From Devosia sp. XK-2 (lineage in GTDB: Bacteria > Pseudomonadota > Alphaproteobacteria > Rhizobiales > Devosiaceae), in the NCBI RefSeq assembly GCF_037113415.1, contig NZ_CP146608.1, positions 2,314,501-2,378,500 of the forward strand: a stretch of DNA of 64,000 nt, written 5' to 3'. Of this stretch, positions 134-16,342 are shown in pieces (positions within the stretch are counted from its first letter, which is position 1; every line of letters starts with the position of its first letter). The translations under genes were made by a program, and so were the position numbers. The notes below the pieces were generated by a model that saw only the letters and a list, made by a program, of their open reading frames with translations, was not told the DNA's origin and made no database searches.

Positions 134-598
134 TCAAATGGGCAAACCGGAACGCGCCTTGACGAGCCTGATGCTCATATTGGAGTGGATGCGGGCCACG
201 CCCGGCAGTCGGGCGCTAAGGCGGCGATGCAGGTGCTCGAAATCTTCATGGTCCCGGCAGACCACTCGCAGGATGTAATCAGACTGCCCGGCCATCAGAT
301 GGCATTCGAGAACTTCTGGAATGTCCTGCACGGCGGCCTCGAAGGCATCGAGCGCCGCCTCGCTCTGGCTGGTCAGCCCAACCTCGATGAAAAACTGCAT
401 CGTAAAGCCGAGGCTCGCCGCATCGAGATCTGCATGGTAACCGCGAACATAGCCCGCTTCCTCGAGCGCCTTGATACGCCGGTGGCAGGCCGATGGGGAC
501 AGGCCCACAGTATCTCCCAGCACCTGCACGCTACGGTGGGAATCGCGCTGCAACTCGCGCAGCAACTTCCGGTCGGTGGAGTCTGGCAATTGCGGCAC
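134..598 (-). CDS. Lrp/AsnC family transcriptional regulator
   Basis: A DNA-binding regulator of amino-acid or nitrogen metabolism type. The N-terminal helix-turn-helix spans about residues 5-60 (STDRKLLRELQ, then VGLSPSACHRRIKALEEAG), and a RAM ligand-binding domain follows (FFIEVGL, then LMAGQSDYILRV). The open frame continues upstream to a TTG at 661, but I chose the GTG at 598. It has a GGAGG six bases upstream and gives 154 residues, the usual family length, with the HTH at the N-terminus. The gene stands alone, with no partner gene on its left inside the window. The effector cannot be told from sequence. The family call is firm and the start is fairly firm. Confidence 0.88.
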   Translation of the reverse strand: MPQLPDSTDRKLLRELQRDSHRSVQVLGDTVGLSPSACHRRIKALEEAGYVRGYHADLDAASLGFTMQFFIEVGLTSQSEAALDAFEAAVQDIPEVLECHLMAGQSDYILRVVCRDHEDFEHLHRRLSARLPGVARIHSNMSIRLVKARSGLPI

Positions 599-1127
599 GT
601 GCGGCCTCCATGCTGGATCAGCGACGGGCCGAACATGTGATCCAGCGGGACAAAATGACAAGCACCGCGCGCGTTATCCCCACTCGCACGCACGAAACGG
701 TGCGGACTTAGTAAACAAATACTGTAGGATCACGGCTGCTTTTTCGCACCGCAAAGAATCTGCCGGGGCCCTATATGTAGGATGATCGCCCAGCGTCTCT
801 TTTTGCGCACAAAACAGGGCGCGAAGCCGAAGCTTCGCGCCCCTTCGGGGCGACCTGCAAAGGAGCGTCAACCTTTGCGGCCGGCCGCCGATCAAACAGC
901 GGAGGCTCTGTTGGCACACCGCCATAGGCATTCCAGACACTCGACACGTCCGGTTCGCCCACTCAACGATGCAATTGGCGGGGAGTTCCCGCCATTTTTG
1001 GACGGGGCGGAATTGTGATCGCCTGCGGGTGCAATGACGGCCAGGGCAGGTTACCACGAGCCGGGTTCGCGGCGTCCTGGCCAATTTCGAGAGGCCGAAG
1101 AACCGCGCTGGTCCAGCGGGAAACGAT
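599..1127. other. Intergenic gap with overlapping hairpins
   Basis: About 530 bases with no convincing gene; the open frames here have no family signature and no good ribosome site. It holds a perfect 11-bp inverted repeat at 817-842 (arms GGGCGCGAAGC and GCTTCGCGCCC, loop CGAA). A second hairpin at 838-852 (CGCCCC, TTC, GGGGCG) overlaps it, so the two cannot form together. There is a 12-bp palindrome at 877-888 (GCGGCCGGCCGC). An 8-base word, TGTAGGAT, occurs twice near 723 and 776. The first hairpin could end the leftward transcript of the response regulator gene, but the following U-run is weak. Confidence 0.5.
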
Positions 1128-2057
1128 TTAGAGGTCGAACGACGCCTGCAGCGCCTGAATGGCCTTGATTGCTGCCGAAGCGCGGTTCTCGACCCCGAGT
1201 TTGGTATAGACCTGCTCGAGATGCTTGTTCACCGTGCGTGGGCTGAGGCCCAGAATATCGCCGATATCCTTGTTCGACTTGCCTCGCCCGATCCAAAGCA
1301 GCACTTCGCTCTCTCTTTGGGTAAGGCCGAATTGCTGGCGCAACGCATCTTCCTGCCCCTCCTCCTGCGCCCGAGCGATACGGAACAGATACTCATCGCC
1401 GCCCACCACGCCGAGATAGGCAAACTGCAAGCCGGAGGCGGCGCCTGTCTGCAGCTCAAAACCACCGCCAGGGGCCAATTGCTCGCCCTCCGCGACGCGC
1501 CATTGCATGAAGTTCTGCGACATGACCGACTGCGTCGCCGCGCCAATACCCGAGCGCTCCAGCAGCCGGTTCGCCTGCGGCGTAGACCAGAGCACCGCGC
1601 CATCGGCGCCAAAGGCCACCAGATGCCGGCCGGCAGCATCAAGGGCGATGCGGGCGCTCTGGGCGCGGCGCGCATTGGCCAGATGCACGCGGATGCGGGC
1701 GCGCAACTCGTCCACATTGATCGGCTTGCTGAGATAATCGACCCCGCCGCTTTCCAGCGCATGGACCACGTGTTCGGTCTCGGTAAGACCGGTCATGAAG
1801 ATGATCGGCACATGCACCAGCGGCGGCAGCGCCTTCATGCGCTGGCAGGTCTCAAAACCATCCAGGCCCGGCATGACCGCGTCCATCAGCACCACATCGG
1901 GCGTGACGCGTTCGACGATCTTGAGCGCCGCCTCGCCGCTGCGCGCCACCAGCACGGTAACGCCCGCCTGCTCCAGCGCCGTGGTCAAAAAGCCGAGCGA
2001 TTCCGGCGAGTCGTCGACCAGAAGGACGATATCCTGTTCCTGTTCAATCCGGCTCAT
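1128..2057 (-). CDS. LuxR-family response regulator, partner of the adjacent transporter-kinase
   Basis: A two-component response regulator of about 309 residues. It has an N-terminal receiver domain with the acidic pair D15-D16 and phospho-acceptor D59 (VVLMDAVMPG). A middle region of about 100 residues, including DAAGRHLVAFGADGAVLWS, is PAS-like. The C-terminal LuxR-type HTH starts LTQRESEVLLWIGRGKSNKD, at about residues 243-305. I chose the ATG at 2057 over the upstream in-frame ATG at 2084, because it overlaps the kinase stop codon by 14 bases and leaves the receiver at the N-terminus. The overlap implies translational coupling to the kinase gene. Likely targets are the divergent urea-transport genes or the kinase operon itself; that is inference. 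Confidence 0.9.
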   Translation of the reverse strand: MSRIEQEQDIVLLVDDSPESLGFLTTALEQAGVTVLVARSGEAALKIVERVTPDVVLMDAVMPGLDGFETCQRMKALPPLVHVPIIFMTGLTETEHVVHALESGGVDYLSKPINVDELRARIRVHLANARRAQSARIALDAAGRHLVAFGADGAVLWSTPQANRLLERSGIGAATQSVMSQNFMQWRVAEGEQLAPGGGFELQTGAASGLQFAYLGVVGGDEYLFRIARAQEEGQEDALRQQFGLTQRESEVLLWIGRGKSNKDIGDILGLSPRTVNKHLEQVYTKLGVENRASAAIKAIQALQASFDL

Positions 2058-5000
2058 GACCCACCCGCTCCAGCGTTTCGGCAAAGCCGTCGAAGTCGAA
2101 ATCCTGCATATGGCGCCTGAGGGTTTCCACGAGGGGCAGGTTGTCCGGATTGGCGGCCAACTCGCTCAGCTTGGCATCGATCCCCCTGACATGACCGATT
2201 TGCCCGAGCGCGGCCAGATCGCGCAAGTGCTCGGCACCCGGCGACTGTATCTTTTTCGGCGCCCCACTAGGCACATTCGGGGCCGGATGCACCCATTCCA
2301 GCCCCAGATGTCGCCCCAATTTGTCGACAAGCTGGTTGAGGTCGAACGGCTTGGCCAATGTATCGCTATGCCCGGCATCGGCGCTGGTCGGATTGGCGCC
2401 ATCCCCGATATTGGCGGACAGCATGACGATGGGCGCCCCAATGCCGCCAGCGCGCAACCGCTCCACCAGATCCCAGCCGCTCATCCCGGGCATGCGAATA
2501 TCGATGAAGAAGAGGTCGGGTATGGTCGCCTCGACGGCCTGGAGACAGGACGGCCCATCGACCGCCGCCACTATGTCAAAACCGAGCGGCTCGAGCATTT
2601 CGCGCATCATTTGCCGGTGATCCGCATTGTCATCGACCACCATGATGGTGCGGCGCGGCCCCTGATAGCCGACAATATCCTGCACAGGAGCCAGACGCCG
2701 GCTCGGGCGCTCGACCTTGGTCAGCATGAGCCGCGCCTGAAAACGCGTACCAACGCCGACCTCGCTGGACACGGTAATTTCCCCGCCCAGCGTTTCGGTC
2801 AGTAGTTTGGTTATGGTCAGCCCCAGACCCAGTCCGGGGGTAAAACGGTTGCGCTCCGCCTCGCCACGCACGAAGGGCTCGAAGACGTGATCGAGATCGA
2901 CCGGAGCAATGCCGCTGCCGCTATCCTCGACGGTAAAGCTCGCCACCTGCATGCGATAGCTGACAGCGAAGCTGACATGGCCGGCACTGGTGAACTTGAT
3001 GGCATTGGATAGCAGATTGACCAGAATTTGCCGCAGCCGCTTTTCGTCGGTGCGCACATAGACCGGCAGGGCACCGGAACGATGGTGGCGGAATTCGAGC
3101 CCCTTGGCTTCGGCCTGCAGGCGGAACATATCCACGATCTGGTCGAGGAAATCCTGGATGTTGACCTCGCTCGAATAGACCTGCAGCCGCCCCGCCTCGA
3201 TCTTGGAAATATCGAGAAGCCCATCGATCAGCCCGGACAGATGCTCAGCACTGCGCCGGATGACCTGGGCCGATCCGCGCCGGGTCTCCGGCAATTGCGC
3301 ATCGCGTTCGAGGATTTGAGCATAGCCCATCACCGCATTGAGCGGCGTGCGCAATTCATGGCTGAGGCCGACGACATAACGGCTCTTGGCCTGGTTGGCT
3401 GCCTCGGCTTTCTCCTTGGCGCGCTGCAATTCGGCGTCGGTTTTCGAGTGGGCGTCGATTTCCTTTAGAAGCAGGGTGTTCTGCCGCGAGCTTTCCTCTT
3501 CTGCGACGAGCCGGCTGTCATGAGCCAGGACCAGGAACCAGGTCATGACCCCGGCGGCCACCGCCAGCACGAAGAAAACGACAAGCAGGGTGCCGCCCAC
3601 CACGTCGGCGGTATGTGGCGCCGAGCGGCTGGCGAAATAGTAGATGAGACCGAGCATGCCACCCAATATGGCCAGCGCCGAGGCCATGGAGAGCCCGAAA
3701 CGCCCAAGGCGCGACTGCAGTTTTTCGATGGCCCATTCGGGCAGAACGCTGGCCGCCACCGCATGGGTCTGCGCCCGGAAATGCGCATGCGGCTTGCACA
3801 TGTCGTGGCAGCGCGCGTCGAGCGAACAGCACAGTGAACAGATCGGCGCCGCGTAGGCCGGGCACCAGGCCATGTCTTCGGGCTCGAAGGGATGCTCGCA
3901 GATCGAGCAGGTCAGCGTCTCCTTCTCCTGCCACTGTTTGCGAGGCTTCCGCGCCAGGTAATATTTGCCCTTGGTCGCCCAGGCGATGGCAGGAGAGGCA
4001 ATGAGGCAGACGACCAGCGCGATATAGGGCGACAGCGCCGAGGCCATTTCGCCAAAGGCACCGAAATGGGCGGTCAGGGCGATGACCACTGAGAGCAGCA
4101 TCGAGCCGACCCCGACCGGATTGATATCGTAAAGATGCGCGCGCTTGAACTCGATGCCCGGGGGGGCCAGGCCCAGGGGTTTGTTGATGAACAGATCGGC
4201 CGAAATCGAGCAAAGCCAGGCCATGGCAATGATTGAGAAAATGCCCAGGGTCTCTTCCAGCAGCCGATAGATGCCCAATTCCATGAGCAAAAGCGCAATG
4301 CCCACATTGAACAGCAGCCAGACGACACGGCCGGGATGGCTATGGGTCAGGCGGGAGAAGAAGTTCGACCAAGCGAGCGACCCGGCATAGGCATTCATGA
4401 CATTGATCTTGAGCTGACTGACCACCACGAAGACGGCCATGAGCATCAGCGCCACGAATTCATTGGGGATCATATAGCCAAAGGCGACGGCATACATATA
4501 GCCGGGCTCGGACGCATGCTCGGGCGATACGCCGGCCGAAAGGGCAAGAAAGGCCAGGAACGACCCCGCGATCAGCTTGGGCGCCCCCACCACGACCCAG
4601 CCAGCTCCAGCCAGGAAAATGCCCAGCTTGTGCCGCCATTTGGACGCGCCTTCGGCAGGCAAAAAGCGCAGGAAGTCGACTTGCTCGCCGATCTGGGTCA
4701 TCAACGCCAGGATAACGGCTGATGCCGCGCCGAATTTAGCGATTTCAAACGGCGCGATGGAACCTGCCGCACCTTCGGGCTGCCCGAGCCCGGCGAAGGC
4801 GCGCCAGAGATCGAACTTCTCCCAATCCATAAAGGCGATGAAGAAGAAGGGCAGAATGTTGAGCACGATCCAGATCGGCTGGGTCAACATCTGGAACGAG
4901 GAAATCATGCGAATGCCGTGGGTCACCAGCGGAATGACCACCAGCGCCGAAATGATGTGCCCAATCCAGAGTGGAATGCCGAAGGCCAGCTCAAGCGCAC

Positions 5001-5412
5001 TCGACATGATCGAGGCTTCGATGGCGAAGAGGATGAAAGTGAAGCTGGCATAGATCAGCGAGGTGATCGTCGAGCCGATATAACCAAAACTGGCGCCGCG
5101 GGTGAGGAGGTCGACATCGACGCCATGCCGGGTGGCATAGCGCGAGATCGGCACGCCAACGAGCAGAATGGCAATGGAGGCCACCAGAATGGCGATCAGC
5201 GCATTGGAGGTGCCATAGCTCAGCGTAATCGCCCCGCCTATGGCCTCAAGCGCCAGGAAGGAAATGGCACCGATCGCCGTCTGCGAAATGCGGTCGTTGG
5301 AGAAGCGCCTGGCCGATTTGGCGGTGAAGCGAAGCGCGTAGTCTTCCAGCGTCTGGTTGGCCACCCAGCGATTATATTCGCGCCTGACGGGAATGATCCG
5401 CTGCCGTGCCAT
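2044..5412 (-). CDS. NCS1-type transporter fused to histidine kinase and receiver (hybrid sensor)
   Basis: A membrane sensor of about 1122 residues. Residues about 20-500 form a multi-span transporter resembling nucleobase:cation symporter-1 proteins (many hydrophobic segments; LTRGASFGYIGS). A cysteine-rich module follows at about 503-540, with eight Cys spaced CX2C-X11-C-X7-C-X2-CC-X5-C-X3-C. Two further membrane helices lie at about 570-645. The kinase core has the H-box SHELRTPLN near 685 and an N-box NLLSNAIKFT near 800. A receiver follows with MVVDDNADH and FFIDIRMPG (Asp near 970), then an unassigned tail of about 75 residues. The ATG at 5412 has AAGG about ten bases upstream; a TTG at 5421 is the alternative. 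It lies divergent from urtA, so a urea or nitrogen-compound signal is plausible but unproven. Confidence 0.92.
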   Translation of the reverse strand: MARQRIIPVRREYNRWVANQTLEDYALRFTAKSARRFSNDRISQTAIGAISFLALEAIGGAITLSYGTSNALIAILVASIAILLVGVPISRYATRHGVDVDLLTRGASFGYIGSTITSLIYASFTFILFAIEASIMSSALELAFGIPLWIGHIISALVVIPLVTHGIRMISSFQMLTQPIWIVLNILPFFFIAFMDWEKFDLWRAFAGLGQPEGAAGSIAPFEIAKFGAASAVILALMTQIGEQVDFLRFLPAEGASKWRHKLGIFLAGAGWVVVGAPKLIAGSFLAFLALSAGVSPEHASEPGYMYAVAFGYMIPNEFVALMLMAVFVVVSQLKINVMNAYAGSLAWSNFFSRLTHSHPGRVVWLLFNVGIALLLMELGIYRLLEETLGIFSIIAMAWLCSISADLFINKPLGLAPPGIEFKRAHLYDINPVGVGSMLLSVVIALTAHFGAFGEMASALSPYIALVVCLIASPAIAWATKGKYYLARKPRKQWQEKETLTCSICEHPFEPEDMAWCPAYAAPICSLCCSLDARCHDMCKPHAHFRAQTHAVAASVLPEWAIEKLQSRLGRFGLSMASALAILGGMLGLIYYFASRSAPHTADVVGGTLLVVFFVLAVAAGVMTWFLVLAHDSRLVAEEESSRQNTLLLKEIDAHSKTDAELQRAKEKAEAANQAKSRYVVGLSHELRTPLNAVMGYAQILERDAQLPETRRGSAQVIRRSAEHLSGLIDGLLDISKIEAGRLQVYSSEVNIQDFLDQIVDMFRLQAEAKGLEFRHHRSGALPVYVRTDEKRLRQILVNLLSNAIKFTSAGHVSFAVSYRMQVASFTVEDSGSGIAPVDLDHVFEPFVRGEAERNRFTPGLGLGLTITKLLTETLGGEITVSSEVGVGTRFQARLMLTKVERPSRRLAPVQDIVGYQGPRRTIMVVDDNADHRQMMREMLEPLGFDIVAAVDGPSCLQAVEATIPDLFFIDIRMPGMSGWDLVERLRAGGIGAPIVMLSANIGDGANPTSADAGHSDTLAKPFDLNQLVDKLGRHLGLEWVHPAPNVPSGAPKKIQSPGAEHLRDLAALGQIGHVRGIDAKLSELAANPDNLPLVETLRRHMQDFDFDGFAETLERVGHEPD

Positions 5413-5421
5413 GCCGCTCAA

Positions 5422-5646
5422 GCCTTAACCAATTCGCCGCGCTGCCCAAAAAATCGCCAAGCCTTCAATAGCATGGAATGGGCAAAAATCACGCGGTTTT
5501 TCAGGGCCTTCCGTCTGGCTTCGGAATCATTGCGGCAAGCGGTTACGTCAATCGACGTATAGGGCGAACGTTAAAAGCTGTCCCAGTGTGCCCATAGGAC
5601 GCCTCCCGGTGTCTTGAGGGACTCAAACAGGTCTAGAGGGACAAAC
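5422..5646. promoter_or_regulatory. Divergent promoter region, transporter-kinase and urtA
   Basis: These 225 bases separate the leftward sensor operon from the rightward urt operon, so both promoters should lie here. AGAGGGA just before 5647 is the urtA ribosome site. I could not place a convincing sigma-54 element (GG and GC twelve bases apart in good context), although a nitrogen-regulated promoter would be expected for urt. Confidence 0.5.
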
Positions 5647-6942
5647 ATGAAGAACTTCAGCGCCAAGAGCGCTTTGCTCGCCGCCGCTCTCGCTGGCAGC
5701 GTTTCGCTGACCGCCGCGCCGGCCATGGCACAGGACGACACCATCAAGGTGGGTATCCTCCATTCGCTTTCGGGCACGATGGCGATTTCCGAAACCACGC
5801 TCAAGGACACCATGCTGTTCCTGATCGAGCAGCAGAACGCCAAGGGCGGGGTGATGGGCAAGATGCTCGAACCCGTCGTGGTCGATATCGCCTCGGACTG
5901 GCCGCTGGCCGCCGAACTGGCCCGTCAGCTGATTGAAGTCGATGAAGTCGACGCCGTCTTCGGTTGCTGGACCTCGGTCTGCCGCAAGTCGGTTCTGCCG
6001 GTCTTTGAGGAGCTGAACTCGCTGCTCTTCTACCCCGTCCAGTACGAGGGTGAAGAATCCCAGCGCAATGTGTTCTATACCGGCGCCTCCCCCAACCAGC
6101 AGGCCATTCCGGCCGTCGATTACCTCATGAATGAGGAAGGCGTTGAGCGCTGGGTGCTGGCCGGCACCGACTATGTCTATCCCCAGACCACCAACAAGAT
6201 CCTCGAGCAATATCTGCTCGACAAGGGTGTGGCCGCCGAAGACATCATGATCAATTACACGCCCTTCGGTCACTCCGATTGGCAGACCATCGTTTCCGAC
6301 ATCAAGGCCTTCGGCTCGGCCGGCAAGAAGACCGCCGTGGTTTCGACCATCAATGGCGACGCCAACGTTCCCTTCTACCGCGAACTGGGCAACCAGGGCG
6401 TGATGGCCGAGGATATTCCTGTCGTGGCCTTCTCGGTGGGTGAAGAAGAACTCTCCGGCTTCGACACCACCCCGCTGGTCGGGCACCTGGCCGCCTGGAA
6501 CTACTTCATGTCGGTCGACACCCCTGAGAACGAAGCCTTCATCGCTGATTGGCAGGCCTTCATCGGTTCGGAAGACCGCGTCACCAATGACCCGATGGAA
6601 GCCCACATGATCGGCTTCAACCTCTGGGTGAAGGCCGTCGAGGCCGCTGGCACCACCGATGCCGACGCCGTCATCGACGCCATTGTTGGCCTGGAAACCC
6701 CGAACCTGACCGGTGGCGTCGCCAAGATGCTCCCCAACCACCACATCACCAAGCCGGTGCTGATTGGTGAAATCCAGGACGACGGCCAGTTCTTCGTGGT
6801 CTGGGAAACTGAAGATTTGGTTCCCGGCGATGCATGGTCCGACTACCTGCCCGAGAGCAAGATGCTCGAGGCCGATTGGACCGCCCCGATCAACTGCGGC
6901 AACTACAATACCGAGACCATGAGCTGCGGCTCGGCAATGTAA
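5647..6942 (+). CDS. urtA: Urea ABC transporter, substrate-binding protein UrtA
   Basis: Periplasmic binding protein of the high-affinity urea importer, about 431 residues, the usual family length. The signal peptide is residues 1-29, with a cleavage site after APAMA before QDD. The mature protein opens with IKVGILHSLSGTMAISET, the type I binding fold of the branched-chain amino acid/urea/amide family. DAVFGCWTSVCRKSVLP and LLFYPVQYEGEESQRNVFY are typical of UrtA rather than of leucine-binding proteins. I chose the ATG at 5647, which has AGAGGGA upstream, over an in-frame ATG 33 bases earlier. A GC-rich hairpin follows the stop codon, then urtB. Confidence 0.96.
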   Translation: MKNFSAKSALLAAALAGSVSLTAAPAMAQDDTIKVGILHSLSGTMAISETTLKDTMLFLIEQQNAKGGVMGKMLEPVVVDIASDWPLAAELARQLIEVDEVDAVFGCWTSVCRKSVLPVFEELNSLLFYPVQYEGEESQRNVFYTGASPNQQAIPAVDYLMNEEGVERWVLAGTDYVYPQTTNKILEQYLLDKGVAAEDIMINYTPFGHSDWQTIVSDIKAFGSAGKKTAVVSTINGDANVPFYRELGNQGVMAEDIPVVAFSVGEEELSGFDTTPLVGHLAAWNYFMSVDTPENEAFIADWQAFIGSEDRVTNDPMEAHMIGFNLWVKAVEAAGTTDADAVIDAIVGLETPNLTGGVAKMLPNHHITKPVLIGEIQDDGQFFVVWETEDLVPGDAWSDYLPESKMLEADWTAPINCGNYNTETMSCGSAM

Positions 6943-7021: not shown

Positions 7022-8641
7022 ATGCTGACCCTCCGCGCTCTCCGCCTGGTGCTTTTGGCCCTGCCGTTCCTGCTGCTGTCCACAAGCGCGACCCAGGCCC
7101 AGGACACACCCGTTGATATTCCCGCCAGTATCGAAGCCATGGGCGAGGCGAGCCTCAAGGAACTCCAACAGATCGTTGCCGACCTCGCCTCGACCGGCAG
7201 CGATAGTGTCGTGCCGGTCCTGACCGCGCTTGGTGCCGGCAATCTCTATCTCGAAGAAACCACTGGCGCCGTCCTGATCGAGCGTGGCTCGAGCTATATC
7301 CACCCGGTTTCGGGCGAGCCGGTGGAACTGGGCGCCGATGCCGATCTCTCGAAAATTCGCGTCAATAACGGCCTGCGGCGCGACATTGCCGCTGCCCTCG
7401 CTGGAATGACGCTGATGAGCGACAACCCCGCTCGTCGCCTCACGGCCGCGCAGGGCTTTCTGGCTAATCCCGATCCGGCCAATATCCCGCTGCTCGACGA
7501 AGCCATTGCCGCCGAAACCGATGCCAATGTTCTCAAGGTCATGCAAGCGGCGCGCGCCGTAACCATTCTGGGCGACGACGAACAAAGCGTCGAAAATCGC
7601 CAGGCCGCCGTGCCACTGGTCGCCTCGGGCGCCGGTCGCAACGCCCTAACCATCCTCAACTCCGCGCTGGATGGCGCACCCGAGGAATTGGCGCCGACGA
7701 TCCAGTCGGCTATCGCGGGTCTCGAACAGGAGCGCGCCATTTGGGGCGCCCTGCAAAATGTCTGGTTCGGCCTTTCGCTGGGCTCAGTGCTGCTGCTGGC
7801 CGCCATTGGCCTGGCCATCACCTTCGGCGTCATGGGCGTGATTAATATGGCGCATGGCGAAATGGTCATGCTGGGCGCCTACACCACCTTTCTGGTGCAG
7901 CTCGTGATCCGGCAGAACTTCCCTTTCCTGCTCGATTATTCTCTGCTCATCGCCCTGCCCTGCGCATTCTTTGTCACTGGCGCCATAGGGGTAGGCATTG
8001 AACGCGGCATTATCCGCTGGCTCTATGGTCGGCCGCTTGAAACCCTGCTCGCCACCTGGGGCCTGTCGCTCATCCTGCAGCAAACCGTGCGGTCCATATT
8101 CGGCCCAACCAATCAGATGGTGATTGCGCCAACCTGGATGTCCGGCTCGACCGAATTCTTCGGGCTTTCAATCACCTATGGCCGCTTCTGGATCGTCATC
8201 TTCGCGCTGATCGTCTTCTTCATGCTGCTGCTGATCCTCAATCGCACGCCACTGGGCCTGCAGATGCGGGCCGTAACGCAAAACCGCCGTATGGCCTCGG
8301 CAATGGGCATCCGCACCCCCTTTGTGGATGCCATGACCTTCGGCCTTGGCTCGGGCATTGCGGGGCTCGCCGGCGTGGCTCTCACTCAGATCGACAATAT
8401 CTCCCCGAACCTGGGGCAGAACTACATCATCGACAGCTTCATGGTCGTGGTCTTCGGCGGCGTGGGCAATCTCTGGGGCACGCTGGTCGGGGCATTGACT
8501 CTGGGCGTCGCCAACAAATTCCTTGAGCCCTATGCCGGCGCGGTGCTGGGCAAAATCCTGATCCTTGTTCTGATTATTCTCTTCATCCAGCGCCGTCCAC
8601 GTGGGCTCTTCGCCCTCAAGGGAAGGGCGGTGGAACAATGA
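7022..8641 (+). CDS. urtB: Urea ABC transporter, permease UrtB
   Basis: First inner-membrane permease of the urea importer, 539 residues. It has a signal peptide (LLSTSATQAQD), then an exported N-terminal part of about 230 residues that is special to UrtB, with SYIHPVSGEPVELG. The C-terminal half is a LivH-type permease of about eight helices, starting near GLSLGSVLLLAAIGLAITFG, with MGVINMAHGEMVMLGAYTTF and GLQMRAVTQNRRMASAMGI. The exported part and its length separate UrtB from ordinary LivH proteins. It pairs with UrtC to form the channel. Confidence 0.95.
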   Translation: MLTLRALRLVLLALPFLLLSTSATQAQDTPVDIPASIEAMGEASLKELQQIVADLASTGSDSVVPVLTALGAGNLYLEETTGAVLIERGSSYIHPVSGEPVELGADADLSKIRVNNGLRRDIAAALAGMTLMSDNPARRLTAAQGFLANPDPANIPLLDEAIAAETDANVLKVMQAARAVTILGDDEQSVENRQAAVPLVASGAGRNALTILNSALDGAPEELAPTIQSAIAGLEQERAIWGALQNVWFGLSLGSVLLLAAIGLAITFGVMGVINMAHGEMVMLGAYTTFLVQLVIRQNFPFLLDYSLLIALPCAFFVTGAIGVGIERGIIRWLYGRPLETLLATWGLSLILQQTVRSIFGPTNQMVIAPTWMSGSTEFFGLSITYGRFWIVIFALIVFFMLLLILNRTPLGLQMRAVTQNRRMASAMGIRTPFVDAMTFGLGSGIAGLAGVALTQIDNISPNLGQNYIIDSFMVVVFGGVGNLWGTLVGALTLGVANKFLEPYAGAVLGKILILVLIILFIQRRPRGLFALKGRAVEQ

Positions 8642-8819
8642 AGACGGACTTGAACGCGAAGGCAGCGGCCCCGTCGTCCCCTCGCCCCTCAGGGACGGGG
8701 GGCAGGGTGAGGGGTGAAGGCCCATCGTGGGGTCGCACAAGTGACCCCCTCATCCGGCGCTTCGCGCCATCTTCTCCCCTCAGGGGAGAAGGGAACACGC
8801 ACCACCGGAGTGCTTGCCC
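8642..8819. repeat. Palindromic intergenic repeat between urtB and urtC
   Basis: A 178-base spacer in an otherwise tight operon. It contains a perfect 10-bp inverted repeat with a 1-base spacer at 8771-8791 (CTTCTCCCCT / AGGGGAGAAG) and a small hairpin GGCGC-TTC-GCGCC at 8756-8768. Another inverted repeat is GTCCC/GGGAC at 8676-8696, inside a C- and G-run-rich stretch. The CTCATCC...CTTCTCCCCT...GGGGAGAAGG layout resembles dispersed palindromic repeats found in many Rhizobiales genomes. The reading frame across it is not a gene. A GGAG at 8806-8809 serves urtC. Confidence 0.7.
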
Positions 8820-10028
8820 ATGCTGACCCAAGCCCTGTTCCGCGCACTCGACAAAAAGGCCATCTGGGTCATCGGCGTCTTCCTGGCCGTGGCTATCGCC
8901 GTGCCCATGGCCAATCTGCTGATCCCGCCGGGCCAGTTCGGCCACGTGCCGACCTATCTGGTCTCGCTGATGGGCAAATATCTGGCCTATGCGATCCTTG
9001 CTTTGGCGCTCGACCTGGTCTGGGGTTATTGCGGCATTCTCTCGCTCGGCCATGGGGCATTCTTCGCGCTCGGCGGCTATGCCATGGGCATGTATCTGAT
9101 GCGCCAGATCGGCACCCGTGGTGTCTATGGCAATCCGGTCCTGCCCGACTTCATGGTTTTCCTCAATTGGAAGGAATTGCCTTGGTACTGGCTTGGCTTT
9201 GACAATTTCTGGTTCGCCATGGCCATGGTGATCTTCGTGCCGGGCCTATTGGCCTTCATCTTCGGCTTCTTCGCCTTCAGGAGCCGCGTGACCGGGGTCT
9301 ATCTCTCTATCATCACCCAGGCGATGACCTTTGCCCTGCTGCTGGCTTTCTTCCGTAACGATATGGGTTTTGGCGGCAATAACGGCCTGACCGACTTCAA
9401 AGACATTCTGGGCGCTCCCGTGCAGGCCCAATCGACGCGCGCCACCCTCTTTGCGGCGACCGCCATTGCCCTGGCACTCTCGGTGCTGGTTTGTTCGATG
9501 ATCGTCAATTCCAAGCTCGGCAAGGTCATGGTGGCCGTCCGCGACGCGGAAAGCCGCACCAGGTTCCTCGGCTATCGCGTTGAATATGTGAAGCTCTTTG
9601 CCTTCACCGTATCGGCAATCATGGCCGGTATTGCCGGGGCGCTCTATGTGCCGCAGGTCGGCATCATCAACCCGTCCGAATTCGAGCCGGGCAACTCCAT
9701 CGAGGTGGTCATCTGGACTGCCGTGGGTGGGCGCGGCACGCTGATCGGGCCGATCATCGGCGCCATCGTGGTCAATCTGGGTAAGTCCTGGTTCACCACC
9801 ACCCTGCCCGAGCTCTGGCTCTTCGCGCTGGGCGCGCTCTTCGTCTTCACCACGCTCTTCCTGCCCAAGGGCATAGTCGGGCTGTGGCACCAGATCTTCG
9901 GAGCACGGCGCAAGGCCTCGGCAGGCGAGCAGCCTGAAGCCCCGACGCCCGAGCAATCGGCCGATATCGAGCGCGGCGAGGACCCCGCTAGCTTCGGCCA
10001 CGAAGCTCAACCGAAGCCCGCGGAGTAA
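8820..10028 (+). CDS. urtC: Urea ABC transporter, permease UrtC
   Basis: Second inner-membrane permease of the urea importer, LivM type, about 402 residues. ALDLVWGYCGILSLGHGAFF and the following GGYAMGMYLM are family hallmarks, and VAVRDAESRTRFLGYRVEYV is the conserved cytoplasmic loop that meets the ATPases. About eight to ten helices are visible. A hydrophilic tail of roughly 40 residues rich in Glu, Pro and Ala (QPEAPTPEQSAD) follows the last helix; it is probably disordered and of unknown use. The ATG at 8820 is preferred over a TTG six bases upstream. It lies 4 bases before urtD. Confidence 0.94.
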   Translation: MLTQALFRALDKKAIWVIGVFLAVAIAVPMANLLIPPGQFGHVPTYLVSLMGKYLAYAILALALDLVWGYCGILSLGHGAFFALGGYAMGMYLMRQIGTRGVYGNPVLPDFMVFLNWKELPWYWLGFDNFWFAMAMVIFVPGLLAFIFGFFAFRSRVTGVYLSIITQAMTFALLLAFFRNDMGFGGNNGLTDFKDILGAPVQAQSTRATLFAATAIALALSVLVCSMIVNSKLGKVMVAVRDAESRTRFLGYRVEYVKLFAFTVSAIMAGIAGALYVPQVGIINPSEFEPGNSIEVVIWTAVGGRGTLIGPIIGAIVVNLGKSWFTTTLPELWLFALGALFVFTTLFLPKGIVGLWHQIFGARRKASAGEQPEAPTPEQSADIERGEDPASFGHEAQPKPAE

Positions 10029-10032
10029 AGCC

Positions 10033-10782
10033 ATGAGCGCTCATACCGACACCATGCTCTATCTCGACGGCGTCTCGGTTGCCTTCGACGGCTTCAAGGC
10101 CATCAACAATCTCGCCATCATCGTCAGGCCCGCCGAAATGCTGGCCATTATCGGCCCCAATGGCGCGGGCAAGACCACGATGATGGATATCATCACCGGC
10201 AAGACGAGGCCCGATGCAGGTCAGGTTCTGTTCGATGGGCGCACCGACCTCACCAAGCTCGACGAGGCTGCCATCGCCAATCTCGGGATCGGCCGCAAGT
10301 TCCAGAAGCCGACGGTATTCGAGAGCCACACCGTTTGGGACAATCTCGAAATGGCGCTGAAAAAGCCACGCGGCATTTTTTCGACGCTTTTTTATACAGC
10401 CAGCGACAGCGACCGGGACCGGATCACCGAAATCCTTGAAACCGTGCGCCTGATTGCCCGCAAGGACGAATTGGCCGCCAATCTCAGCCATGGCCAGAAA
10501 CAATGGCTCGAAATCGGCATGCTCTTGGCGCAAGACCCCAAGCTCCTGCTGGTCGATGAGCCGGTGGCGGGCATGACCGACAGCGAGACCGAGGAAACAG
10601 CCAAACTGCTGCGCGAGATTTCTCAGACCCGCTCGGTGGTCGTCGTCGAGCACGATATGAGCTTTGTCCGCGATCTGGGCTCCCGCGTCGTTTGCCTGGC
10701 GGAAGGCTCGGTGCTGGCAGAAGGCTCGCTCGACCAGGTCAGCGCCAATCCGGTGGTGATCGAACGTTATCTGGGGAGATAG
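10033..10782 (+). CDS. urtD: Urea ABC transporter, ATPase UrtD
   Basis: Cytoplasmic ATP-binding subunit of the urea importer, LivG type, 249 residues. Walker A is GPNGAGKTT at residues 41-49. The signature is LSHGQKQWLEIG, where the His replaces the usual second Gly, as is common in UrtD. Walker B is LLLVDEPVAGMT. The start is four bases after the urtC stop, with GGAG in the urtC end. With UrtE it forms the ATPase dimer that drives UrtBC. Confidence 0.95.
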   Translation: MSAHTDTMLYLDGVSVAFDGFKAINNLAIIVRPAEMLAIIGPNGAGKTTMMDIITGKTRPDAGQVLFDGRTDLTKLDEAAIANLGIGRKFQKPTVFESHTVWDNLEMALKKPRGIFSTLFYTASDSDRDRITEILETVRLIARKDELAANLSHGQKQWLEIGMLLAQDPKLLLVDEPVAGMTDSETEETAKLLREISQTRSVVVVEHDMSFVRDLGSRVVCLAEGSVLAEGSLDQVSANPVVIERYLGR

Positions 10783-10784
10783 AG

Positions 10785-11489
10785 ATGACCACCGCTCTTT
10801 CGATCAATACCATCGACCTGCACTATGGCGCCGCCCAGGCGCTCAAGGGCGTTTCCATCACCTGCCAGCCTGGCCGCATCACCGCTGTTCTCGGCCGCAA
10901 TGGCGTGGGCAAATCCTCGACCCTTCGGGCGATCACGGGCATCAATCATATCTCGGCGGGCGACATTACCTTTGGTGACGAGGTGTTGAAGCGCACCCCG
11001 CCCTATAAGCGGGCTCGCATGGGCATTGGCTATGTGCCGCAGGGCCGCGAAATCTTTCCGCTGCTGACGGTCAAGGAGAACCTGGAAACCGGCTATGCCG
11101 GGCTGGCACGCTCGGAGCGCAATATCCCCGACTACATTTTCGAGCTGTTCCCGGTGCTAAAATCCATGCTGGGGCGCCGGGGGGGCGACCTCTCGGGAGG
11201 CCAGCAGCAGCAATTGGCCATCGGCCGCGCCCTGGTCACCCGGCCCAAAGTGCTGGTACTCGACGAGCCGACCGAAGGCATTCAGCCCTCGATCATCAAG
11301 GATATCGGCCGGGCGCTGCAATTCCTGCGCGACGAAAAGGACATGACCATTTTGCTGGTCGAACAGTTTCTCGATTTCTGTCGCGAAATTGCCGACGACA
11401 TCTATGTCATGGACCGCGGCGAGATCATGCATGCAGGCCCCGCCAGCGACCTCGACCTCCCCGAGGTCAAGCGGCACCTCATGGTCTAA
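10785..11489 (+). CDS. urtE: Urea ABC transporter, ATPase UrtE
   Basis: Second ATP-binding subunit of the urea importer, LivF type, 234 residues. Walker A is GRNGVGKSS at residues 37-45, the signature LSGGQQQQLAIGRAL, and Walker B VLVLDEPTEGIQPS. The frame is open further upstream inside urtD, but I chose the ATG at 10785, two bases after the urtD stop, because it matches the family N-terminus. It is the last gene of the urt operon; the hairpin at 11494-11515 follows immediately. Confidence 0.95.
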   Translation: MTTALSINTIDLHYGAAQALKGVSITCQPGRITAVLGRNGVGKSSTLRAITGINHISAGDITFGDEVLKRTPPYKRARMGIGYVPQGREIFPLLTVKENLETGYAGLARSERNIPDYIFELFPVLKSMLGRRGGDLSGGQQQQLAIGRALVTRPKVLVLDEPTEGIQPSIIKDIGRALQFLRDEKDMTILLVEQFLDFCREIADDIYVMDRGEIMHAGPASDLDLPEVKRHLMV

Positions 11490-11956: not shown

Positions 11957-12799
11957 GTGAATTTGGCCAAAGCTGAAAATGTGATCTTGCCTCCGCTCCA
12001 GCGCGCGCGCGGCATTGGGCGCCTGGCCACCAAACAGGACGGCGAGCGCACCCGCCTCGCCAACCTGTTCCAGGAGGGCTGCGGCAAAATCCGCCTGCCC
12101 AATACCCATTCGACGAGCTTGGAAGCTGTGCTCATCAATACAGCGGGCGGCATTACCGGCGGCGACCACCTGCAATGGGGTGCTGAACTGGCGCCAGGCG
12201 GGCATATGGTGCTGACCACCCAGGCCTGCGAGCGCAGCTATCGGTCCACTGGCGATTTTGGCAGGGTTGAAACCGCGCTTCGCGTAGGCGCTGGCGCGCA
12301 TCTGGATTGGCTGCCGCAGGAAACCATCTTATTTGCGGCCAGCAAGCTCGACCGCCGCCTCGAGGTTGATCTCGCAGAGGGCGCCACGCTGACCGCCGTC
12401 GAGGCAGTGCTTCTGGGTCGCGACGCCATGGGCGAGGATGCCGCCGACGCCCTGTTGCGCGACAATTGGCGCATCAGGCGCGAGGGCAAGCTCATACACG
12501 CCGAGGCGACGCAGCTCCTTGCGACAACCGAGGAACGGCGGAGCCTCTCGCTTCTGGCCGGCAACCGGGCCTTTGCTACAATTCTGCATGTTGCGGCGAC
12601 GCCTGACCGGGCCGAGGCCATTTGCGGGCGCATTCGTGCCCAGCTGCCCGTTGGTCAGGCCATTGCCGCCAGCGCCAACCAATCCCGCCTGGTCATACGT
12701 GCCATGGCGCCGACGGGCCTTGCCTTGCGGCGCATGATCGTACCAGTCTTGCTCGAACTCACCGGCGCGGGCAGCCTGCCCCGCCTTTGGCATCTCTAG
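11957..12799 (+). CDS. ureD: Urease accessory protein UreD
   Basis: Accessory protein that, with UreF and UreG, docks on apo-urease and delivers nickel to the active site in the cytoplasm. It has 280 residues, the usual length. Recognisable segments are LINTAGGITGGDHLQW near residue 60, VLTTQACERSYRS near 84, and LDWLPQETILFAASKLDR near 115. The start is GTG with a weak GGGA about nine bases upstream. It is the first gene of the urease cluster and ends 9 bases before ureA. Confidence 0.95.
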   Translation: MNLAKAENVILPPLQRARGIGRLATKQDGERTRLANLFQEGCGKIRLPNTHSTSLEAVLINTAGGITGGDHLQWGAELAPGGHMVLTTQACERSYRSTGDFGRVETALRVGAGAHLDWLPQETILFAASKLDRRLEVDLAEGATLTAVEAVLLGRDAMGEDAADALLRDNWRIRREGKLIHAEATQLLATTEERRSLSLLAGNRAFATILHVAATPDRAEAICGRIRAQLPVGQAIAASANQSRLVIRAMAPTGLALRRMIVPVLLELTGAGSLPRLWHL

Positions 12800-12808
12800 G
12801 ATCGGACG

Positions 12809-13111
<303 letters not shown>

Positions 13112-13122
13112 TGAGGCAATCC

Positions 13123-13701
13123 ATGCTCAAACGCAGTCTCGCCACCCTGGCCATTTCGCTTGCCGCGACGCTCCCCGCCTTTGCCCATCTCGATCCGGGA
13201 GCGCATGGCTCAATCGCGGCCGGCTTCAGCCACCCTCTGTTCGGGCTCGATCATATCCTGGCCATGGTGGCAGTCGGTCTCTGGGCCGCGATGCAGGGCG
13301 GCCGCGCACTCTGGCTGGTCCCCGCCGCCTTTGTCGGCACCATGGCGCTGGGCTTTGCCGCCGCGATAACCGGCATGCCCCTGCCCTTTGTTGAGCCGGT
13401 GATCCTGGCCTCTGTCATCTTTATCGGCATAGCCATTGCGCTGGCCCTGCCGGTTCCCACTACGGCGGTCGCGGCCATGGTCGGCTTTTTTGCCTTCTTC
13501 CATGGGCACGCCCATGGCGGCGAACTGGGCGGCGCCGGCGCCTGGGAATTTGCCATCGGCTTCATTCTCTCCACTGCAACGCTCCACGCTCTGGGCATCG
13601 CCATTGGCCTGCTGCTGGCCCGCACCGGCGGCAAGACCCTTTCCCGCATAGCCGGCGGCGCTACTGCGCTCGGCGGTCTGTGGCTCGCTATTGGCGGCTG
13701 A
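13123..13701 (+). CDS. ureJ: HupE/UreJ family protein, probable nickel permease
   Basis: Inner-membrane protein of about 192 residues thought to bring nickel to urease. It has a signal-like first segment ending LPAFAH, then [19 protein letters not shown], the HupE/UreJ hallmark with its HxxxxDH-like metal-binding pattern. A second histidine patch, [10 protein letters not shown], is also typical. About six helices follow the N-terminal segment. I chose the ATG at 13123, which has GAGG six bases upstream; the ATG at 13111 overlaps the ureA stop and is the alternative. The gene sits between ureA and ureB, as in many Rhizobiales. Confidence 0.9.
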
Positions 13702-13711
13702 GGAGGCAGGC

Positions 13712-14017
13712 ATGATCCCCGGAGAAGTCATCCCCGCCAAGGGCGATATCGAACTCAATGCCGGTGCCGAACAGATCACGCTGGAGGTCGCCAATACCGG
13801 CGACCGCCCGATCCAGGTCGGCTCGCACTATCATTTCTTTGAAACCAATGCCGGTCTGCGCTTCGATCGTGACAAGGCGCGCGGCATGCGGCTCGACATT
13901 GCCGCGGGGACAGCCGTGCGCTTCGAGCCGGGGCAGTCGCGCGAGGTGCGGCTGGTGCCGATATCGGGAGCACGGCGCATTTTCGGTTTCCGGCAACAGA
14001 TCATGGGGGATCTCTGA
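13712..14017 (+). CDS. ureB: Urease subunit beta UreB
   Basis: Structural beta subunit of urease, 101 residues. It begins [18 protein letters not shown] and contains [11 protein letters not shown] and [15 protein letters not shown], all strongly conserved. The ATG at 13712 has GGAGG eight bases upstream; an in-frame upstream ATG lies inside ureJ and is unlikely. It is separated from ureC by about 600 bases that hold a small unknown gene and RNA hairpins, whereas ureB and ureC are often adjacent. Confidence 0.96.
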
Positions 14018-14111
14018 GGATCAGGATCGGGTGTCATTTTGTGCGGCCCGGCCATGGCGCTTGCAGGTGAAAGCTGGTTAAAGGGCACGACCTCCAGTTC
14101 AGGACCGTGCC

Positions 14112-14513
14112 ATGACCACCGAGCCCAGCAGGCAAGCCCAGTTCAAGCAGCGTTTCATCTCCGTCGTTGCCGATTTGCGCCAGGATGGCATCAACGACCC
14201 CGAGGCCATGGCGCTTGTCGGAGGTTTGGCTGCGGACCTCGCCGATGCGCTGAAACGACCGAGCTGGATGGCTCTCAAGCAGGGCCTCACACCCGCTATC
14301 TACGATGAATTGCTGCAGTCTTTCCAAAAGCGCGGCAACGAATATCACAAGGATGGACGAACCAAGCTTGCTTACGCCATCCAGCTTTTGAGTGTTTCGC
14401 TGGTCGCCTTCACCCAGCGCAACGACGCCGACATCGCGGCAGGCGAAGAACTGCTCGACCAGTTGATCGACCGGGCCGCGACCATCTACCGCCAGAACCG
14501 CCCCAGGCACTGA
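14112..14513 (+). CDS. Unknown 133-residue protein inside the urease cluster
   Basis: I do not recognise this gene. It encodes a soluble, mostly helical protein without a signal peptide or membrane segments and with no Cys or His cluster. It starts MTTEPSRQAQFKQRFISVVA, and AYAIQLLSVSLVAFTQRN is its most hydrophobic stretch. The start has AGGA about seven bases upstream and codon use looks like that of its neighbours, so it is probably real. It lies between ureB and ureC on the same strand, which suggests co-expression with urease, but it has no obvious nickel ligands. It could be a passenger. Confidence 0.7.
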   Translation: MTTEPSRQAQFKQRFISVVADLRQDGINDPEAMALVGGLAADLADALKRPSWMALKQGLTPAIYDELLQSFQKRGNEYHKDGRTKLAYAIQLLSVSLVAFTQRNDADIAAGEELLDQLIDRAATIYRQNRPRH

Positions 14514-14519
14514 TCCTGA

Positions 14520-14618
14520 CCGGCGCGCAATGGCAAAACCAATGCGCGCCGGGCCTCTTGCAAGCCCGGCTGCGACAGGCCAAAGTCACGCCCGGGAAAC
14601 CTTTGTTCCGGGCCTTTT
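14520..14618 (+). promoter_or_regulatory. Three hairpins upstream of ureC, attenuator-like
   Basis: Hairpin A: 10-bp stem 14520-14529 / 14543-14552. Hairpin B: 7-bp stem 14548-14554 / 14564-14570, whose left arm uses the last bases of A, so A and B compete. Hairpin C: 8-bp stem with one bulged G, 14590-14598 / 14606-14613, followed by CTTTT, which looks like an intrinsic terminator. The order of competing stems and then a terminator directly before ureC suggests attenuation or tuned readthrough. I recognise no known riboswitch class. Confidence 0.5.
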
Positions 14619-14632
14619 GAACGGGACACGAC

Positions 14633-16342
14633 ATGCCAGCACGGATTTCACGCGCCACCTACGCCGATATGTACGGCCCGACCACGGGTGACCGCGTCCG
14701 CCTCGCCGATACCGAACTCTTCATCGAGGTGGAGAAGGATTTCACCATCTATGGCGAAGAGGTCAAATTCGGTGGTGGAAAGGTCATTCGCGACGGCATG
14801 GGGCAGTCCCAGCGCAGCCGGGCCGAAGGCGCGGTCGACACCGTCATCACCAATGCACTGATCGTCGATCATACCGGCATCTATAAAGCCGATATCGGCC
14901 TCAAGAACGGTCTGATCGCGGGCATCGGCAAGGCCGGCAATCCTGACACCCAGCCGGGCATCGACATCATTATCGGGCCCTCGACCGAAGCCATTGCCGG
15001 CGAGGGCAAGATCCTCACCGCCGGCGGTATGGATGCACATATCCATTTCATCTGCCCCCAGCAGATCGAAGAGGCGTTGATGAGCGGCGTCACCACCATG
15101 CTCGGCGGCGGCACCGGTCCCGCTCATGGCACTTTGGCGACCACCTGCACCGGCGCCTGGCATATCGAGCGCATGATCGAAAGCTTCGACGCTTTTCCCA
15201 TGAACCTGGCCCTCGCCGGCAAAGGCAATGCGGCCCTGGCCGCTCCACTCGAAGAAATGATCCTGGCTGGCGCATCCGCCCTCAAATTGCATGAGGACTG
15301 GGGCACCACGCCGGCCGCCATCGACAATTGCCTCTCGGTCGCGGACGACTATGACGTGCAGGTGATGATCCACACCGACACGCTCAATGAGAGCGGCTTT
15401 GTCGAGGACACGGTGGGGGCCTTCAAGGGCCGCACCATCCACGCCTTCCACACCGAAGGCGCCGGCGGTGGTCACGCCCCGGATATTTTAAAGGTGGCGG
15501 GTCTGCCCAATGTCATCCCGTCTTCGACCAATCCGACTCGGCCCTATACGGTCAATACCATTGCCGAGCATCTCGACATGCTCATGGTCTGCCACCATCT
15601 CGACCAGTCTATTCCCGAGGACGTAGCCTTCGCCGAGAGCCGTATCCGCAAGGAAACCATCGCCGCGGAGGATATCCTGCACGATATGGGCGCGCTTTCG
15701 GTGATTTCATCTGACAGCCAGGCCATGGGCCGCGTCGGCGAAGTGCTGATCCGAACCTGGCAGACAGCCGACAAGATGAAGCGCCAGCGTGGTCGGTTGG
15801 CCGAAGAAACCGGCGACAACGACAATTTCCGTGTCCGCCGCTATGTCGCCAAATACACGATCAATCCCGCCATCGCCCATGGCATGAGCCAGCATATCGG
15901 CTCGGTGGAAGTGGGTAAGCGCGCCGATCTCGTGCTGTGGAATCCCGCCTTTTTCGGCGTGAAGCCGGAAATGGTGCTGCTTGGCGGCTCCATCGCGGCG
16001 GCGCCCATGGGCGACCCCAACGCGTCAATCCCGACACCCCAGCCCATGCATTACCGACCCATGTTCGCCGGCTATGGCAAGCTGGTGAGCCGTTCATCGG
16101 TGGTCTTCATTTCCCAGGCGGCCCATGACGCCGGCCTCCGCAACCGCCTGGACGTCGACAAGCAGCTTCTGCCCGTCTCGAACACCCGTGGCGGCATCGG
16201 CAAGGCAGCCATGAAGCTCAACACAGCCACGCCACAGATCGACGTGCACCCCGAAACCTATGAGGTGCGGGCCGACGGGGAATTGCTCACCTGCGAGCCA
16301 GCCACCGTACTGCCCATGGCGCAGAGATATTTCCTGTTCTGA
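14633..16342 (+). CDS. ureC: Urease subunit alpha UreC (catalytic)
   Basis: Catalytic subunit of urease, 569 residues, full length. Nickel ligands are visible: H136 and H138 in DAHIHF, the carbamylated K218 and H220 in [10 protein letters not shown]247 in [10 protein letters not shown], and the [14 protein letters not shown] segment. The active-site flap Cys is in MVCHHLD. A conserved Asp, probably the remaining nickel ligand, is in [11 protein letters not shown]. The start has GGGA seven bases upstream. A short hairpin, TTGCGCG/CGCGCAA, at 16348-16363 follows the stop. All active-site residues I can check are present, so the enzyme should work if nickel loading works. Confidence 0.98.

Follow-up and report, generated by a model that had tools for sequence, protein, structure and literature searches.

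A hybrid sensor kinase encoded next to the urea importer operon urtABCDE of Devosia sp. XK-2 carries an NCS1-like membrane domain and belongs to a fusion family which is widespread across Pseudomonadota. It is probably a transceptor-type NCS1 kinase for urea or short amides which controls urt through the palindrome TACGTCnnnnGACGTA, ie a substrate-specific two-component system. The window analysed is a stretch of 64,000 nucleotides (contig NZ_CP146608.1, positions 2,314,501 to 2,378,500 of the forward strand). The original prediction, made from these letters alone, had described a permease joined to a complete kinase and a receiver, coupled to a LuxR-type regulator and divergent from urtABCDE, with urease further downstream. 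This arrangement was confirmed (Table 1). Pfam recognised HisKA, HATPase_c and Response_reg in the kinase and Response_reg and GerE in the regulator, all five urt genes exceeded their NCBIfam cut-offs, and urease was identified from the open reading frames (ORFs) and by tblastn.

Linkage to urea and formamide genes

At least 534 relatives of the fusion were found in GTDB genomes, so it is not a chance joining of two genes. Among the 80 closest, 78 adjoin urtABCDE. A diverse sample of 70 loci was assembled from order- and phylum-wide samples and included a second copy from the same genome (L009). Urea ATP-binding cassette (ABC) transporter or urease genes, or formamidase (in 35 loci together with a urt-like ABC, in two with fmdA alone), adjoin 67 of the 70, and the other three are contig-end fragments. 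The family is thus concentrated beside genes for urea or formamide uptake or hydrolysis, the reverse of the scatter away from urea and nucleobase genes which would have spoken against the original prediction. Co-occurrence with urtA, proposed there as a check, was also found: over 398 Pseudomonadota genomes a UrtA-type protein was present in 51 of 52 kinase carriers compared to 121 of 346 non-carriers (p 7e-20, a value which ignores phylogeny). Two shorter kinases of the same family (approximately 885 aa, L123 and L158) lie near fmdA with no adjacent urt-like ABC and branch outside the others.

Perfect 5-bp dyads were counted upstream of the kinases with no prior motif. The top of the count was TACGT-N6-ACGTA, with TACGTCnnnnGACGTA as its full 16-bp form. 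At one mismatch or fewer this form occurs in 32 of 68 kinase upstream regions, where shuffled sequences gave an expectation of none, and a looser form of the palindrome occurs in 47 of the 68 (1.35 expected). The sole perfect copy in the 3.8 Mb genome lies between the kinase and urtA, at 5544-5559; at up to three mismatches, the window has no more matches than chance would give. Where the kinase and urtA are separated by 0.8-4 kb the palindrome remains beside urtA (L116, L120, L127, L167, L035, L052, L072), and in L164 and L172 it precedes urtA far from the kinase start. Within 500 bp upstream of the UrtA-type gene, the palindrome or a close variant was present in 47 of 59 kinase-bearing loci and in none of 20 kinase-lacking loci, using a pattern slightly widened after variants had been seen in the urease clade; the earlier pattern likewise gave none of 20. 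Sigma-54 sites in the same regions had the opposite distribution (0/59 and 14/20, respectively).

The second kinase of this genome is 53% identical to the first, has its own regulator, and is divergent from a urt-like ABC operon which ends in the formamidase FmdA (767 bits, NF045496). When the cargo was mapped on the kinase tree, four parsimony changes were required compared to at least 16 with shuffled labels, although some deep branches are poorly supported. One urea clade of 25 (support 1.0) and one of seven (0.998) were recovered; the formamide association is more scattered, and urea partners had several origins. In Bradyrhizobium, a urt-like transporter linked to formamidase has previously been argued, in the SIMBAL paper, to carry another amide (PMC3098086).

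A relative of the sensor kinase was also found on 342 Klebsiella plasmid records, annotated as an ATP-binding protein or ArcB where seen. On one K. pneumoniae plasmid (NZ_CP098162.1, L257) it is transcribed divergently from urtABCDE-formamidase, and TACGTCATTTAACGTA occurs at L257:9870. The urt cluster of pKPN-307 plasmids has been described as a urea transporter with no mention of a histidine kinase (PMC5506382, PMC13060141). The plasmid binding protein shares 77% identity with that of the formamide type in the Devosia genome, and therefore the published Klebsiella 'urea transport system' may be an importer of formamide or of other amides.

The membrane domain and its pocket

The assignment of the membrane domain to NCS1 in the original prediction was correct but not obvious. 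Pfam PF02133 matched neither this kinase nor any of 50 sensor domains at the gathering cut-off, Pfam found no NCS1 and no SSF protein anywhere in the genome, and sequence searches of Pfam, NCBIfam and the PDB with the sensor domain gave no significant NCS1 match. The relationship was detected by profile-profile comparison. With hhalign, 34 sensor domains were compared to 24 NCS1 transporters, 20 SSF (SLC5) proteins and UrtB/UrtC; the match to NCS1 had a probability of 99.5% (E 4.3e-23, over 415 columns), compared to 0.8% for SSF and 0.2% for UrtB or UrtC. An origin from SLC5 was ruled out on this comparison. A distant unfused relative in L156 (27% identity, 490 aligned columns) is the only one to pass the Pfam NCS1 model (36.4 bits), and because of these two results the NCS1 call is considered correct. 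Two AlphaFold models, built from alignments of close relatives, were weak, with predicted local distance difference test (pLDDT) scores of 53 and 56. The better of them (pLDDT 56, predicted template modelling score 0.54) gave SGLT2, Mhp1 and CodB as top PDB matches at E of about 1e-4, which fits the LeuT fold and does not single out a family.

E135, K338, N340 and N343 are invariant in the sensor domain (77 sequences). Positions were mapped by sequence onto Mhp1, using residues which we take to be the contacts to substrate or Na+ in its structure. Q121 corresponds to the invariant Glu135 and N318 is retained as Asn343, while the stacking W117 is Phe or Leu, Q42 is replaced, and W220 could not be aligned. 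The Na+ site and aromatic sandwich of Mhp1 are not preserved, as S312 has become the invariant Lys338, A38 is Gly and I41 is Ser in addition to the change at W117. The proton-coupled transceptor CbrA similarly carries a lysine, K196, in its Na+ site (PMC13022988). Together with the neighbours of the unfused relatives (below), these residues would suit a pocket for a small amide, for instance urea or formamide, with no dependence on Na+. Residues specific to the urea or formamide clades gave only weak signals (eg positions 329, 342 and 395).

The mapped pocket residues are mostly common to the sensor and its standalone relatives, with S54 to Ala and F55 to Tyr as exceptions. These relatives are about 535 aa long, approximately 40% identical to the sensor, and annotated as cytosine or allantoin permeases. 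The gene is the last of the urease operon in Klebsiella (order ureDABCEFG) and the first in Acinetobacter; it is divergent from fmdA in Moraxella and adjoins an aliphatic amidase in Arthrobacter. In A. baumannii a kinase-regulator pair is divergent from the standalone permease, with palindrome-like sites between them. The so-called cytosine or allantoin permeases at L261:8956-10563, L258:5663-7270 and L262:8926-10569, which lie in urease operons or beside formamidase and have a four-cysteine tail, look like urea or short-amide permeases. The distant NCS1 permease of L156 is followed by a CN-hydrolase of nitrilase/amidase type, a UrtA/AmiC-like protein and AmiR (L156:8949-13984).

Between the permease and the kinase no recognisable Pfam domain was found, in this kinase or with the 50 sensor domains. 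The permease-kinase-receiver order of the original prediction stands, but it had overlooked an eight-cysteine module (Cys8) and a pair of hydrophobic helices in this interval. All eight cysteines (C505, C508, C520, C528, C531, C532, C538 and C542) are invariant in 77 of 77 kinases. A Cys8 profile run against 299 genomes gave confident matches confined to this kinase family; five further matches at E 0.002-0.009 were of chance quality. In most of the unfused permeases inspected, the C-terminus is a shorter tail which has four of the eight cysteines, and a tail of this kind may therefore be the origin of the module; the exceptions have five cysteines (Streptomyces), one (Arthrobacter) or none (L156). 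Metal binding is the obvious guess for its role.

Proposed mechanism and alternatives

In the mechanism we favour, urea (or formamide in the sister members) would bind in the NCS1 pocket, and the resulting change in conformation of the membrane domain would switch the kinase on. His688 would be phosphorylated and the phosphate passed to the LuxR-type regulator, which would then bind TACGTCnnnnGACGTA at 5544-5559 and activate the divergent urtABCDE, and possibly its own operon. Where present, the two-component system would take the place of sigma-54 control of urt. The parts expected of a hybrid histidine kinase are in place, with HisKA, HATPase and a receiver carrying the conserved His and Asp. 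His688 is kept in 77 of 77 sequences and Asp974 in 75, the other two being gaps. The partner has the receiver and GerE helix-turn-helix of a NarL/FixJ-type response regulator.

Several points weigh against this reading. The formamide cassette L009 has no full palindrome and carries only a half-like site, which it has in common with the relative L134; this site could keep the two paralogous systems apart. Most of the urease-proximal members have a degenerate palindrome, or none, near the kinase. The Streptomyces standalone relatives have no urease or amidase neighbour, and the AlphaFold models are poor. Two Ensifer loci (L067, L076) have the kinase-regulator pair apart from urt. Finally, the linkage would be the same if the kinase sensed ammonia or another product instead of urea.

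A refinement of the favoured reading, possible but not the expected outcome, is that the sensor domain itself carries urea across the membrane and signals during transport, ie is a true transceptor, and serves as a backup for the ABC importer. The likeness of its pocket to those of standalone relatives which are likely to transport is in keeping with this, the two substitutions noted above apart, and CbrA combines transport with signalling (PMC7096432, PMC13022988). A sensor could, however, retain the binding site and lose transport. A more speculative proposal, and on balance an unlikely one, is that the kinase combines two signals: urea or amide, received in an NCS1 pocket which does not need sodium and has Lys338 in its place, and a metal or redox state (eg zinc, or the nickel needed by urease), received in Cys8, which would have grown from the four-cysteine tail of unfused urea/amide permeases. 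If this were so, urt would be expressed only when the substrate is usable.

It is improbable, to our minds, that the NCS1 domain senses a shared downstream signal (ammonia, internal nitrogen status or proton motive force) rather than the substrate. Ammonia comes from both cargoes, the invariant lysine at the Na+-site position recalls K196 of the proton-coupled CbrA (PMC13022988), and the kinase replaces sigma-54 sites. Against this, the clade-wise matching of sensor and cargo and the occurrence of two copies within one genome are more readily explained by substrate sensing, and the unfused relatives look like permeases for urea or formamide.

The original prediction had named urea, a purine or a purine breakdown product as the ligand. 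The neighbourhoods, the unfused relatives and a predicted operator which tracks urtA point to urea, and the purine part of the proposal did not fare well. It would have the NCS1 domain bind allantoin, uric acid or a pyrimidine, with urt induced because urea is a breakdown product, and this we consider highly improbable. NCS1 members of known structure do transport hydantoin and cytosine, and some of the unfused relatives are annotated as allantoin or cytosine permeases. However, formamidase, the enzyme found as the other cargo, does not act in a pathway for purines or pyrimidines, the operons which hold the standalone relatives are for urease or amides, and both the stacking W117 and Q42 of Mhp1 are replaced. 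No nucleobase-degradation, allantoin or uric acid genes were seen among the neighbours read, which were not searched systematically for such genes. That the link to urt is merely positional and the pair regulates something else, as the two Ensifer loci might suggest, is scarcely credible given conservation across classes, repeated cargo switching and a palindrome which remains next to urtA even where kilobases separate that gene and the kinase.

The locus and related systems

The features of the locus are collected in Table 1. The predicted extent of the sensor, 2044-5646, was correct for the kinase but not at its end: the ORF ends at 5421, and the remainder is the 234-bp intergenic region which separates the kinase from the divergent urtABCDE, up to the urtA ATG at 5647. 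The kinase ORF starts with TTG, and the ATG at 5412 agrees with the starts of its relatives and is the likely start. The regulator gene lies directly downstream of the kinase and overlaps its stop.

Table 1. Features of the kinase-urt-urease locus (window coordinates).
Feature	Position	Strand	Evidence or remark
Hybrid sensor kinase	2044-5421	minus	1125 aa ORF; NCS1-like domain, Cys8, helix pair, HisKA, HATPase, receiver
NCS1-like membrane sensor domain, residues 4-495	3937-5412	minus	hhalign, Mhp1 mapping, 77-sequence conservation
Eight-cysteine module (Cys8), residues 505-542	3796-3909	minus	Conservation in kinase alignment
Two hydrophobic helices, about residues 575-632, N-terminal to kinase	3526-3699	minus	Kyte-Doolittle scan
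HisKA, residues 679-744, phospho-acceptor His688	3190-3387	minus	Pfam
HATPase_c catalytic domain, residues 791-900	2722-3051	minus	Pfam
Response_reg receiver, residues 926-1035, with Asp974	2317-2646	minus	Pfam
Response regulator: Response_reg, middle domain, LuxR/GerE helix-turn-helix	1128-2084	minus	Pfam; ATG 2057 possible
Predicted regulator operator TACGTCAATCGACGTA	5544-5559	no strand	87 nt before urtA ATG; palindrome searches
urtA, urea ABC substrate-binding protein	5647-6942	plus	TIGR03407, 538 bits, above cut-off; ATG 5647 inside ORF 5614-6942
urtB	7022-8641	plus	TIGR03409
urtC	8814-10028	plus	TIGR03408
urtD	10033-10782	plus	TIGR03411
urtE	10782-11489	plus	TIGR03410
Urease region ureD, ureA, ureC	11957-16342	plus	ORF list; tblastn against relatives and annotated urease operons

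An Lrp/AsnC regulator (134-661, minus strand) lies downstream of the regulator gene; it is near the pair in several Devosia loci and not in most Rhizobium loci. To the left of the window (L010:4513-9500) there are an NMT1/THI5-type ABC transporter and a molybdopterin oxidoreductase, and a similar NMT1-type ABC adjoins the formamidase cassette (L009:13659-16197). The pair in Ensifer L067 adjoins an apparent sugar ABC transporter.

Fusions of a transporter to a kinase are regarded as rare, and those of which a description was found use SLC5 or Amt; the present NCS1-based family is widespread. No description was found in a search of the literature on urea or urt, formamidase or NCS1 with histidine kinase or two-component systems, a search which lay mostly outside subscription papers. 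AmsSR of Acinetobacter, a 14-transmembrane hybrid kinase, was set aside as its paper draws no urea link. The family suggests how many bacteria release urea uptake from general nitrogen control. It also gives a likely function, urea or short-amide permease, to the proteins of urease operons which carry a cytosine or allantoin permease label, and names a likely regulator for the urt-like cluster on hospital Klebsiella plasmids. Since the family is widespread and has a predicted ligand, target and DNA site, the proposal can be tested in ordinary rhizobia.

The closest parallels are the SLC5-STAC kinases of CbrA/CbrB, CrbS/CrbR and RpuS/RpuR, in which a transporter domain is likewise fused to a histidine kinase. 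CrbS, too, is a hybrid kinase; its regulator is of the LuxR family and acts at an inverted repeat. The Na+-site lysine of CbrA resembles Lys338 (PMC13022988). CbrA and CrbS differ in having an SLC5 domain and a STAC linker, where the present kinase has NCS1 followed by Cys8 and two helices, a linker contrast drawn from the Pfam scan. With RpuS included, the cargo is histidine, acetate or pyruvate rather than urea or formamide, and the palindrome is another one. The Kuenenia Amt-HK ammonium sensor also joins the transporter domain for a nitrogen source to a histidine kinase, but the Amt fold is unrelated and the ligand is ammonium (PMC5764959). Mhp1 and CodB are homologous to the sensor over some 415 columns, which take in the DxxR and FGxxG motifs; unlike them, the sensor escapes PF02133 and is fused to a kinase. 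AmiC/AmiR similarly ties the control of amide use to the substrate, which is sensed by a UrtA-like protein, but it acts by antitermination through a soluble receptor and does not form a two-component system; the permease of L156, a distant NCS1 relative, adjoins such genes. UrtABCDE systems with sigma-54-type promoters have the same ABC importer, whereas the kinase-bearing loci carry the palindrome and no sigma-54 sites.

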